Source: Pedobacter foliorum (GTDB lineage Bacteria > Bacteroidota > Bacteroidia > Sphingobacteriales > Sphingobacteriaceae). From it: a stretch of DNA of 64,000 nucleotides. Positions 40,794 through 44,768 of this stretch are shown in pieces (within the stretch, counting starts at the first letter, position 1; every line of letters begins with the position of its first letter). The stretch is from the NCBI RefSeq assembly GCF_013266735.1, contig NZ_JABSNU010000008.1, forward strand, positions 1 to 64,000, given 5' to 3'. The notes below the pieces were generated by a model that worked only from the letters and a program-made list of their open reading frames with translations, had not been told where the DNA came from and made no database searches. The position numbers were made by a program, and so were the translations under genes.

Positions 40794-42584
40794 TTACACA
40801 GATTGACTTTCTTCCTCAAGTAATTGGTTCTGATACATTTCTGCATAAGCACCACCTTTTTGTAATAATTCGTTATGTGTACCGTGTTCAATGATCTGAC
40901 CATCATCAAGAACTAAGATTTTGTCAGCATTTTTTATAGTAGAAATTCGGTGGGCAATAAGGATACTGGTCTTGTCATTCATGATTCTACCTAGATTATT
41001 TAGAATCTCTTCTTCAGTTCTGGTATCAACGGCAGAAAGACAATCATCAAATATCAGAATCTTTGGCTCTTTAATCAATGCACGGGCAATAGAAACACGC
41101 TGTTTTTGTCCACCAGACAAAGTAATACCTCTTTCTCCGAGCATGGTTTCGAATTTAAGCTCAAAGTCGATGATGTTGTGATAAACGGCTGCGTTTCTTG
41201 CTGCGGTTTCAACCTCTTGATCATTAACTGCATCAAGACCAAAGGCAATGTTGTTTTTTATCGTGTCAGAAAACAAAAATACCTCCTGTGGCACAAATCC
41301 TATCTGGTTACGATAATCTTGCAAATTAAGGTCTTTTAAGGCCTTGTCGTCAATTACTATTTTTCCTCCGTCTACATCATACATTCTCATGAGTAGATTG
41401 GCTAGGGTAGATTTTCCAGATCCTGTACGGCCAATAATTGCCACAAATTGTCCCTGCTCAATTTCAAAGCTTACATTTTTTAAAGCTGTGATGCCGGTAT
41501 CCGGATAGGTGAAACTTACATTTTCGAACTTGATATTCCCATTTATGGCTCTTTTTTCCTGAGTATTGGAGGTAATATCTGGTTTGAGTTGTAAAAACTC
41601 GTTAATTCTTTTTTGCGATGCAGATGCCCTCTGTATCAAGGTGGTTACCCATCCAAGCATGGAGACAGGAAAGGTAAGCTGATTAACATATACAATAAAC
41701 TCAGCTATATTTCCGGGTGTTATCGATCCGTCAATTACTTGCTTCCCACCAACATAGATGGTGAGGATAGTACTTAAACCTACCAATAGGAGCATTGTCG
41801 GATAAAACAGCGCTTGTACTTTAACCAAGCTCATTGCACTATTCTTATAACCCTCGCTCTCAGCAGCAAAAACTTTTTTGGTATGTCCTTCACGGACATA
41901 GGATTTTATTACTCTGATACCCGAAAATCGTTCTTGTACAAAACTCGATAAATTTGAAAGTTGCTCTTGTATCTGCTCACTTTTGTGGTTGATAAGCGTA
42001 TTTACATAATAAATGATGATAACCAATGCTGGTAAAGGGAGCAAACAAAAGATAGCTAATGTGGCATTAACAGAGAACATCGCATAAATAACCAGTAAAA
42101 AAAGAACTCCGGTATTTATAGCGTACATAATTGCAGGCCCCACATACATTCTAACCCTGTTCACATCTTCAGTTGCTCGGTTCATCAAATCGCCTGTATT
42201 ATTTCTGCGATAAAAGCCTAGACTGAGTTCTTGATAATGGGCATAAATTTCATTCTTCATGTCGTACTCAATATGTCTCGACATGAGAATTATCGTTTGT
42301 CGCATAAAGAAAAGGAACAGCCCCCTTAGCAAATAAAGTACTAAAACAAGAGCACCAAAATACAATAAACTGTAAGAGAAAATGTCGTATATAATTTCAC
42401 GACGCTCAAATCCATTAAATAAGCTGTAAATCTGGATGTTTTCGGTAATTAAATTGAAGGCGTGACCAATAACCTGAGCTGGGATTACACCAAAAATATT
42501 TGATATAACCACAAAGAAAACTCCTGGAATAATCCACCATTTATATTTATAAAAGTACTTGTTTAAAAACCGAAGATGTTTCAT
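40794..42584 (-). CDS. ABC transporter, fused permease-ATPase (MsbA-like)
   Basis: A 596-residue half-transporter of the exporter type: six membrane helices in residues 15-310, followed by a nucleotide-binding domain. Walker A is GRTGSGKST at 385-393. The LSGGQ signature and the Walker B LIFDDCLSAVD follow. The H-loop lies in LIAHRIST. Likely a homodimeric lipid or drug exporter. A name such as msbA is not assigned because sequence alone does not separate it from multidrug exporters. It ends 69 bp from DUF3276 on the same strand. Confidence 0.92.
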   Translation of the reverse strand: MKHLRFLNKYFYKYKWWIIPGVFFVVISNIFGVIPAQVIGHAFNLITENIQIYSLFNGFERREIIYDIFSYSLLYFGALVLVLYLLRGLFLFFMRQTIILMSRHIEYDMKNEIYAHYQELSLGFYRRNNTGDLMNRATEDVNRVRMYVGPAIMYAINTGVLFLLVIYAMFSVNATLAIFCLLPLPALVIIIYYVNTLINHKSEQIQEQLSNLSSFVQERFSGIRVIKSYVREGHTKKVFAAESEGYKNSAMSLVKVQALFYPTMLLLVGLSTILTIYVGGKQVIDGSITPGNIAEFIVYVNQLTFPVSMLGWVTTLIQRASASQKRINEFLQLKPDITSNTQEKRAINGNIKFENVSFTYPDTGITALKNVSFEIEQGQFVAIIGRTGSGKSTLANLLMRMYDVDGGKIVIDDKALKDLNLQDYRNQIGFVPQEVFLFSDTIKNNIAFGLDAVNDQEVETAARNAAVYHNIIDFELKFETMLGERGITLSGGQKQRVSIARALIKEPKILIFDDCLSAVDTRTEEEILNNLGRIMNDKTSILIAHRISTIKNADKILVLDDGQIIEHGTHNELLQKGGAYAEMYQNQLLEEESQSV

Positions 42585-42695: not shown

Positions 42696-43784
42696 ATGTC
42701 TGGTAATAGTTCTATCGTAAATTCCGTTTTAGATCAAATTGGTGCCTCTGGGCATAAAAAGGTTGTTTATTGTAATGATCCCGATACCGGTCTGAGAGCG
42801 ATTATTGCTATTCATGATACTACATTGGGCCCTGCAATAGGTGGAACAAGGATGTGGAATTATGCTACCGAGGCCGAAGCTCTTGAAGATGTGCTTCGAT
42901 TATCGAGGGCAATGACATATAAAGCAGCCATTACCGGCCTTAATTTGGGCGGGGGTAATGCGGTAATCATTGGCGATTCTTACAAAGGGAAATCTGAAGC
43001 CATGATGCGTAGCTATGGTAGATTCATTAAAAACCTAAACGGAGAATTTATTACTGCCGAAGATGTTGGTACCAACACAAGGGATATGGAATATATCCAG
43101 ATGGAAACCAAACATGTTACAGGAGTTCCTGAGTCATTGGGAGGAGCCGGGAATCCTGCGCCAACAACAGCTAAAGGTGTGTTTTTAGGTATTAAAGCTT
43201 GTGTTAAAGAAGTTTTTGGTACTGATATGCTTGCTGGTCGTTCGGTAGTAGTGCAAGGTATTGGTAATGTTGGAGAACATTTGGTTGAATTGCTTAGAGC
43301 TGAAAATGTAGAAGTTTACATCAGCGATATCAATGAAGATCGTTTGCAGCATGTAGCCCGTACTTATAAAGCTAAGCCAATCTCTGCAGATAAAATTTTT
43401 GGTTTAAATGCCGATATTTACGCTCCTTGCGCTCTTGGTGCAACCGTAAATTCTAAAACCATTGAAAAAATGAAGTTTGCTATCATTGCAGGTTCTGCTA
43501 ACAATCAGCTAGCTGATGAGCAGGTGCATGGTAAATTACTTTTAGATAAAGGGATTTTGTTTGCTCCCGATTATCTGATCAATGCAGGCGGTTTAATCAG
43601 CTGTTACTCTGAGCTTACAGGGTATGGTAAAAAACGTACCATGCAACTTACAGAGAACATTTACAATGCTACACGTGATGTAATTAAAATGTCTAAGAAG
43701 GATAATATCCCGACTATATGGGCAGCTAATCGCATTGCAGAACAAAGAATAATAGATATAAAGAAAATAAAATCATCATTTTAA
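42696..43784 (+). CDS. Glu/Leu/Phe/Val dehydrogenase family protein, catalytic Lys replaced by Asn
   Basis: A 362-residue protein of the leucine dehydrogenase type (cytoplasmic, NAD-dependent oxidative deamination of branched-chain amino acids). The Rossmann motif GIGNVG and the block GPAIGGTRMW are present. Lys76 (MTYK) and Asp123 (TAEDVGT) match the usual substrate-binding and catalytic positions. The second lysine, expected in GGGK, is Asn88 (GLNLGGGNAVI; codon AAT at 42957-42959). In leucine dehydrogenases this Lys is catalytic, so activity may be altered or absent, or the variant may be normal in this group. It precedes nusB by 33 bp. Confidence 0.85.
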   Translation: MSGNSSIVNSVLDQIGASGHKKVVYCNDPDTGLRAIIAIHDTTLGPAIGGTRMWNYATEAEALEDVLRLSRAMTYKAAITGLNLGGGNAVIIGDSYKGKSEAMMRSYGRFIKNLNGEFITAEDVGTNTRDMEYIQMETKHVTGVPESLGGAGNPAPTTAKGVFLGIKACVKEVFGTDMLAGRSVVVQGIGNVGEHLVELLRAENVEVYISDINEDRLQHVARTYKAKPISADKIFGLNADIYAPCALGATVNSKTIEKMKFAIIAGSANNQLADEQVHGKLLLDKGILFAPDYLINAGGLISCYSELTGYGKKRTMQLTENIYNATRDVIKMSKKDNIPTIWAANRIAEQRIIDIKKIKSSF

Positions 43785-43817: not shown

Positions 43818-44768
43818 ATGTTAAACAGAAGGCACTTAAGAATTAAAGCTTTGCAAAATATATTTGCTTGGCACATGACAGACAAAAGAGATTTAGCTTC
43901 ATCTAAGAAGGCTCTTATGCACAGTATTGATAATGTATATGAAATGTACATTTGGATGCTTTCTCTATTAGTAGAGGTTACGGAATATACCGGTGTTGAT
44001 GCATTGGAAAGGGCTAATAAGCACCTACCTACCGCAGATGACCTTAATCCGAACCTAAAATTGCTGAACAATACGTTCGCCATTACGTTAAAGAATAATC
44101 CTGATTTCATTGCTGCTGTAAACAAATACAAAATCAACTGGATGTCAGATCCGGAATTTGTAAAAGCAATTTTCAATACTTTGAAAGTTACTCCAGAGTA
44201 CACCGCATATCTTGCCGATCAGGATAATAGTCTGGAAGAATCTAAAACAATCATCAAATTTATCTTTAGAAAAATCATTCTAAAAAGCCACAATATTATA
44301 CAGGCTTTTGAGGATAAATTTATCAACTGGTCTGTTGATAAAGAGGTGATGCAGGGTATGGTTGCTAAAACTATCAAAAATTTTACATCAGAAGATGCAT
44401 TCGCAAACAAGCTTACTCCAATTAGTCAGGATTGGGAAGAGGATAGCAAATTTGTTGAAGATTTGTTTATCTATACGCTTAGGAATGATAAAGATTATCA
44501 GGCACTTATTGCAGAACGTACCAAAAACTGGGAGTCGGAGCGTATTGCTTTGATGGATACTATTTTGATGAAAATGGCGATTTGCGAACTGCTAAATTTC
44601 CCATCAATTCCAGTTAAGGTAACTATTAATGAATATCTTGATTTATCAAAAGATTACAGTACGCCGAAAAGTAATTCATTTATTAACGGTATCTTGGATA
44701 AAATTATGGGCGACCTTAAAAGAACAAATAGCATTACTAAAATTGGTCGTGGACTTATAGAAGAATAA
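43818..44768 (+). CDS. nusB: transcription antitermination factor NusB, extended
   Basis: A 316-residue protein whose C-terminal part (about 180-305) has the NusB helical fold, including LMDTILMKMAICELLNFPSI and PVKVTINEYLDLSKDYSTPK. The N-terminus also begins with the NusB-like MLNRRHLRIKALQNIFAWHM. Bacterial NusB is usually about 140-160 residues, and the long form is normal in Bacteroidota. It binds boxA RNA in rRNA antitermination. It heads a conserved group with DUF1573, yajC, ybbR and coaE; the DUF1573 gene is 6 bp away. Confidence 0.88.
   Translation: MLNRRHLRIKALQNIFAWHMTDKRDLASSKKALMHSIDNVYEMYIWMLSLLVEVTEYTGVDALERANKHLPTADDLNPNLKLLNNTFAITLKNNPDFIAAVNKYKINWMSDPEFVKAIFNTLKVTPEYTAYLADQDNSLEESKTIIKFIFRKIILKSHNIIQAFEDKFINWSVDKEVMQGMVAKTIKNFTSEDAFANKLTPISQDWEEDSKFVEDLFIYTLRNDKDYQALIAERTKNWESERIALMDTILMKMAICELLNFPSIPVKVTINEYLDLSKDYSTPKSNSFINGILDKIMGDLKRTNSITKIGRGLIEE

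Follow-up and report, generated by a model that had tools for sequence, protein, structure and literature searches.

Sequence comparisons give good support to a recurrent loss, within the Sphingobacteriaceae and not across the Bacteroidota, of the lysine that acts as general base in leucine dehydrogenase (LeuDH). A single bacterial family has repeatedly given up this residue, regarded as the general base of amino acid dehydrogenases, while the gene itself was retained. The phenomenon is family-wide and recurrent, and is therefore larger than the observation of a single asparagine (Asn88) in one protein of Pedobacter foliorum. It should be emphasized that this evolutionary part is the well-supported one, the functional part being a proposal.

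The LeuDH-like gene and its Asn88 codon

The window (the whole stretch of 64,000 nucleotides that was analysed) carries at 42696..43784, on the + strand, a gene encoding a leucine-dehydrogenase-like protein of 362 aa, which belongs to the Glu/Leu/Phe/Val dehydrogenase family according to its open reading frame and to profile and structure matches. The gene is intact, with a full-length frame within the window, and both PF02812 and PF00208 of Pfam score above cut-off, i.e., the Glu/Leu/Phe/Val dehydrogenase domains are present. The best PDB matches of its AlphaFold model (mean pLDDT 91.4, 56 sequences) are LeuDHs, 8gxd (Z 51.2) and 8hpe (Z 51.0); over the best eight structure matches listed, Z ranges from 47.7 to 51.2 and LeuDH structures rank first.

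Asn88, encoded by the codon AAT at 42957..42959 (+), sits in the motif GLNLGGGN, at the position of the general base Lys80 of LeuDH, as indicated by the alignment to LeuDH and the family site counts. Among the matches listed, the alignments to 6acf (LeuDH of Geobacillus), 8gxd and 8hpe run without a gap across this block, and all three have Lys in the Asn88 column, with an offset of 8 to 6acf. In the same alignments, Lys76 (42921..42923, +) falls on Lys68, involved in carboxylate recognition according to Table 1 of PMC8766677, and Asp123 (43062..43064, +) falls on Asp115; this residue is Asp here and the family rows are a mixture of Asp and Glu. The replacement of the catalytic lysine by Asn and the secure register with its offset of 8, both put forward in the first-pass annotation, are therefore borne out, and a misregister of Asn88 was rejected on the ungapped alignment through the block. 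The site counts also locate Thr158 (43167..43169, +), the equivalent of Thr150, by comparison of the family with the outside sequences, and GIGNVG (residues 188-193; 43257..43274, +), which we take to be the NAD-binding glycine motif. Asn269-Asn270 (43500..43505, +) correspond to Asn261-Asn262 of LeuDH, the second of which contacts the substrate carboxyl (PMC8766677, Table 1). The protein has the fold and domains of a LeuDH, the equivalents of Lys68 and Asn262 (Lys76 and Asn270) and that of Asp115 (Asp123), and it lacks the general-base Lys80 of the GGGK motif. A second intact LeuDH, i.e., a paralogue elsewhere in the genome, was rejected: apart from this protein, the genome matches only in two longer proteins, which carry GGAKG and GGGKG and look like glutamate dehydrogenases.

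Recurrence of the lysine loss in Sphingobacteriaceae

Relatives were gathered from whole genomes at four taxonomic levels (family, order, class, phylum) and from named genomes, which contributed the best 80 of their 102 loci. The 313 loci with a relative correspond to 292 distinct sequences over the aligned stretch, 188 from Sphingobacteriaceae and 104 from outside this family, the latter spread under about 50 other family labels of Bacteroidota. Four loci (L059, L067, L084 and L094) were assigned to Sphingobacteriaceae by identity (74-86%), and a partial one with Ser88 (L104) was left out of the tree and site counts, leaving 187 full-length family rows. The record of L094 is titled Flavihumibacter soli R14; its aligned LeuDH protein is identical to that of a Sphingobacteriaceae genome, so the record may be misnamed, and its row was collapsed as a duplicate.

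The alignment of orthologues that the first-pass annotation had proposed for measuring the spread of Asn gives K 113, N 25, S 22, T 9, Y 7, C 6, Q 3, G 2 and A 1 at site 88 for the 188 distinct family sequences, and K 103 and N 1 for the 104 distinct Bacteroidota sequences outside the family. A residue other than Lys thus occupies the site in 75/188 distinct sequences versus 1/104. For example, P. duraquae DSM 19034 has Thr and Mucilaginibacter corticis MAH-19 has Cys, whereas P. steynii and P. nyackensis have Lys. The idea of a Bacteroidota-specific variant has to be abandoned, since almost all outside sequences (103/104) keep Lys and the loss is recurrent within Sphingobacteriaceae. Within its own Pedobacter clade, Asn88 recurs at 11 other loci, 10 from named records and L004, in a set that includes the best 80 of the 102 named-genome loci. 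They include those of P. panaciterrae LMG 23400, P. panaciterrae O48, P. psychroterrae, P. frigoris, P. metabolipauper and P. ginsengisoli, and one of the 11 (L004) is possibly from the same species as another of them. The single Asn outside the family, an independent one, lies in GGGNAVIIKDKD of L241, a locus of a distant genome (G224) from another family of the phylum.

A first tree was built without columns 88 and 123 from the family rows and 22 chosen outgroup rows, against which the Sphingobacteriaceae form a single clade (support 99). On this quick tree, 77 of whose 206 inner branches are poorly supported, site 88 undergoes 23 changes, 13 of them between K and non-K (minimum counts), and 7 independent K/non-K contrasts lie on well-supported branches (7-8 when both sets of trees are considered). 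In a second pair of trees, from which all catalytic-shell columns were left out, this site changes 24 times over the 22.5 substitutions per site of the family tree (187 sequences) and once over the 30.4 of the outside tree (104 sequences). Change at site 88 inside the family is more than chance would give. Such parsimony counts carry no direction of change; Lys being the state outside the family and in its deepest branches, most of the changes should be losses. When changes are counted inside the family alone, the site comes only about 63rd among the 362, so that the strong part of this result is the contrast with the outgroups.

The residues that replace lysine are restricted. The 74 full-length non-K rows have only Asn, Ser, Thr, Tyr, Cys, Gln, Gly or Ala, and none of them has Arg, Glu, Ile or Met, though each of these is one base from AAA/AAG. 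The chance of avoiding these four residues is 7e-4 for 13 losses and 0.02 for 7 losses, rough values that assume equal one-base changes from AAA and ignore mutation bias and multi-step paths. This restricted spectrum implies that site 88 is still under some constraint, apparently in favour of side chains that are small or polar and carry no charge.

Released and retained residues, selection and gene order

Conservation of at least 98% in the outside sequences is shared by 63 positions, and of these site 88 changes most inside the family. It is followed by T158 (T150 of LeuDH, 15 changes), V90, K21 and A89, then by L82, A121 (A113), D123 (D115) and P154 (P146), and a threshold of 97% adds V124 (V116) and E122 (E114). 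Site 158, for example, is Thr in 104/104 outside rows, whereas many family rows have A or S there. Even with K80 set aside, the sites that line the substrate pocket according to PMC8766677 (Table 1) show a mean of 4.2 changes versus 1.4 for the other sites at least 97% conserved outside (17 versus 59 sites, p = 0.004), and the enrichment is also seen at the other two conservation thresholds (p = 0.011 and 0.015). The changed pocket sites are A113, E114, D115, V116, P146 and T150; changes of the pocket in the family include L40 to I or F and A113 to S or G. In contrast, G41, K68, N261, N262 and N287 show 0-1 changes. The equivalent of Lys68 is K in 187/187 full-length family rows and 104/104 outside rows, Asn261 is unchanged in 187/187 family rows and Asn262 and Asn287 in 186/187, while the NAD glycines G188 and G190 and the equivalent of Asp203 are unchanged in all 187. 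As K68 and N262 are listed as substrate carboxylate contacts of LeuDH (PMC8766677, Table 1), this pattern of changed shell sites and fixed K68, N261, N262 and NAD sites indicates that residues of the chemistry were released and holders of the carboxylate and NAD kept. Residue 303 (V294 of LeuDH) is Cys in 160/187 family rows versus 8/104 outside; V294C was chosen in an engineered amine dehydrogenase derived from LeuDH (PMC8766677).

The extent of these changes varies within the family. The most changed genus (g16) combines M65I, K80S or C, A113S, E114I/L/T, mostly P146T, and T150A. All six tested catalytic-shell residues are intact in 50/187 family rows, so there is no uniform pseudoenzyme state in the family, and these 50 rows may be ordinary active enzymes. 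Loss of K and change of A121 or T158 are associated in raw counts, but the association is not significant when independent pairs are compared (median p 1 for A121 and 0.125 for T158). The three options offered in the first-pass annotation for the Asn88 protein, i.e., lost activity, another substrate or a taxon-specific variant, were reasonable but do not cover the whole pattern: seven residues besides Asn replace the lysine, and the catalytic shell was released too.

D123E is found in 48/188 distinct family rows (48/187 full-length), including L009-L012, L014 and L069-L075; all have Lys88, and the tree requires 7 changes. It occurs in 0/75 non-K versus 48/113 K distinct rows, but a comparison of independent pairs speaks neither for nor against this mutual exclusion (median p 1). 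A89G, a substitution adjacent to the lysine, accompanies D123E in 37/48 rows and is found in 0/139 Asp rows, with 5 independent pairs, too few for a test; this suggests a compensation for the longer Glu side chain. D115E together with A89G may represent another route to a modified active site.

dN/dS was estimated (NG86) from pairs with a dS of 0.15-1.5, group g15 yielding no pair in this range. For the non-K groups, medians are 0.007 in the Asn Pedobacter clade (4 pairs), 0.036 in the Thr/Ala Pedobacter (1 pair), 0.047 in the Tyr group (5 pairs), 0.025 in the Ser/Cys group g16 (2 pairs) and 0.017 in the Asn group g4 (1 pair). For the K clades, they are 0.024 in the K+D Pedobacter (31 pairs), 0.016 in the K+E Pedobacter (196 pairs), 0.040 in g21 (1 pair) and 0.027 in g11 (14 pairs). 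The five non-K groups thus span 0.007-0.047 (only 13 pairs in all) versus 0.016-0.040 for the K clades; the outgroup value of 0.22 (49 pairs) reflects distant pairs, whose synonymous sites are saturated, and is of no use as a control. The non-K clades are under strong purifying selection. Furthermore, the median identity within the Asn clade (8 loci) is 94.8% for the LeuDH-like protein versus 87.1% for the ABC neighbour and 92.4% for the NusB-like one, and no internal stop was found in the 136 rows with stop counts among those listed. A pseudogene was rejected on the full-length frame and the low dN/dS.

The downstream neighbour (43818..44768, +), presumably a NusB-like protein, is present in 65/65 named family loci. 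The divergent upstream neighbour (40794..42584, -), which we take to be an ABC-transporter-like protein, is present in 63/65, the two other loci being cut there by the contig end. The order ABC(-), LeuDH(+), NusB-like(+) is found in all 65, contig permitting, and the same neighbours occur outside the family (NusB-like in 13/15, ABC in 11/15), both counts being taken from the best 80 of the 102 named-genome loci. The LeuDH-like genes of the set are orthologues, not paralogues. The genome also encodes an IlvE scoring above the curated cut-off and a 666-aa open frame that matches the keto-acid dehydrogenase E1 family, to which we would assign a branched-chain keto-acid dehydrogenase role. A LeuDH match is absent from 14/138 near-complete family genomes (table read by eye), so the gene is not essential everywhere. 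Several of these 14 genomes (G002, G006, G019, G027, G044, G082, G111, G123, G126, G128, G133, G138, G141 and G146) sit in genera whose other members show altered sites.

Proposed role, alternatives and known systems

We give about even chances to the proposal of a pseudoenzyme-like or repurposed LeuDH, in which deamination would have been given up repeatedly with ligand and NAD binding kept under selection. The Pedobacter protein is the vertically inherited LeuDH orthologue of Sphingobacteriaceae, whose Lys80, lost many times in the family, became Asn in this clade. It probably retains its fold and the ability to bind NAD(H) together with a branched-chain amino or keto acid, and its turnover of Leu, Val and Ile would be at most very slow, as no side chain would activate water against the imine. 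In LeuDH, according to PMC12018205, Lys80 is the general base aiding the attack of water on the imine, and a Lys80 mutant kept about 1.5% of the deamination activity, which 1 M ammonia raised to 20%. With Asn88, substrate and NAD should bind and hydride transfer may go slowly, turnover being poor. The strict maintenance of the protein points to a role in which binding would count for more than catalysis, or to a reaction that needs no base; selection would act on a non-catalytic, ligand-dependent role such as sensing or partner binding, or on such a base-free side reaction. The bulk of branched-chain amino acid deamination would be carried out by the aminotransferase IlvE. Some weaknesses should be mentioned: by analogy with the mutants, a LeuDH devoid of Lys80 would be weak rather than dead, and the many different replacements could reflect plain relaxation at one site.

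A protein that remains an active enzyme, catalysing an NAD-dependent reaction of an alpha-amino or imino acid, with another substrate or by a Lys80-free route (reduction of a preformed imine, or solvent or ammonia as base), is possible rather than probable. The invariant carboxylate clamp and NAD residues, the changed pocket (L40 to I/F, V294C in 160/187, A113 to S/G), the low dN/dS and the rescue of the Lys80 mutant by 1 M ammonia from 1.5% to 20% (PMC12018205) all fit it, as does the change of both V294 (to C) and E114 in an engineered LeuDH-derived amine dehydrogenase (PMC8766677). However, eight residues at one site, with no common replacement or new basic residue, fit poorly with a single chemistry, and D115, essential to the mechanism according to Table 1 of PMC8766677, is Glu in 48/187 rows. 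Decay of a dispensable enzyme, the gene being on its way out and the lysine lost under relaxed selection, could account for the recurrent and varied replacements and for the absence of the gene from 14/138 near-complete family genomes, in genera with altered sites elsewhere, and IlvE offers an alternative route. It is nevertheless improbable in view of the dN/dS medians of the non-K clades (0.007-0.047), the protein identity of the Asn clade, which exceeds that of its neighbours, the lack of internal stops in the 136 rows listed and the restricted spectrum of replacements.

An ordinary active LeuDH in which another residue acts as base has precedents in pseudokinases with a migrated lysine, WNK1 and POMK (PMC10211241). 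We regard this as very doubtful here: the Asn clade differs from its K-bearing sister clade by 7 fixed sites, none of which brings a new lysine or other basic residue, and the only site enriched in K/R/H among non-K rows, site 262, is already Lys in the published LeuDHs among the alignments listed, hence not new. Site 262 as a compensating base, and with it a migrated lysine, was rejected, neither the enrichment among non-K rows nor the fixed differences of the Asn clade giving a candidate. As for a sequencing or assembly error at Asn88, also envisaged in the first-pass annotation, it is refuted by Asn in the 11 further clade loci, from separate assemblies, and by other non-Lys residues in many genomes; its probability is negligible.

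Within the proposal of a pseudoenzyme-like or repurposed LeuDH, a tentative and more specific version is that LeuDH was turned repeatedly into a ligand- and NAD-binding sensor across Sphingobacteriaceae. Catalysis would be switched off by loss of the base, or altered by D115E, while the binding half stays frozen, and the protein might report branched-chain amino or keto acids and redox state to a partner. A regulatory precedent in the superfamily is the glutamate dehydrogenase of Staphylococcus aureus, which is reported to be bound by a hibernation factor (PMC9522360). The family, in which species with K have close non-K sisters, offers a natural replicated experiment on roles of LeuDH besides deamination. 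Many such genes would receive a leucine dehydrogenase label by homology and may lack the activity, which bears on metabolic models of Bacteroidota and on enzyme mining.

No description of a natural LeuDH without Lys80 was found in searches of open-access literature and, to our knowledge, there is no described pseudoenzyme case of recurrent base loss in the LeuDH family. At 48-51% identity and Z 48-51, the LeuDHs of Bacillota (1LEH, 6ACF, 8HPE, 8GXD) share with the Pedobacter protein the fold, length, Lys68, Asp115, Asn261/262 and NAD motif. Unlike them, it has Asn for Lys80 and pocket changes such as L40I and V294C. The tryptophan dehydrogenase ScyB (NCBIfam NF035922; PDB 5b37) belongs to the same superfamily and is the best NCBIfam match, but with 408.2 bits the protein falls below the curated cut-off of 600 bits.

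The Lys80 mutants of Sekimoto et al. 1993, as described in PMC12018205, have lost the same residue, and K80A and K80Q have natural parallels in the family. In contrast with these mutants (Ala, Gln and Arg, and no Asn, in the list given there), the losses in the family are natural, recurrent and under purifying selection. In the same way, V294C and a change at E114 are common to the family and to the engineered LeuDH-derived amine dehydrogenases of PMC8766677. These engineered enzymes drop the carboxylate clamp (K68S/N261L) and keep K80 and D115, whereas the natural proteins do the opposite. Pseudoenzymes, including the lysine-less kinases (PMC10211241), likewise miss a conserved catalytic residue on a conserved fold. 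The proteins described here resemble them in that the catalytic residue is missing with the fold and ligand residues kept and in their purifying selection (dN/dS medians 0.007-0.047, five non-K groups, 13 pairs). They differ from pseudoenzymes in general in that the loss recurs among orthologues of one metabolic dehydrogenase.
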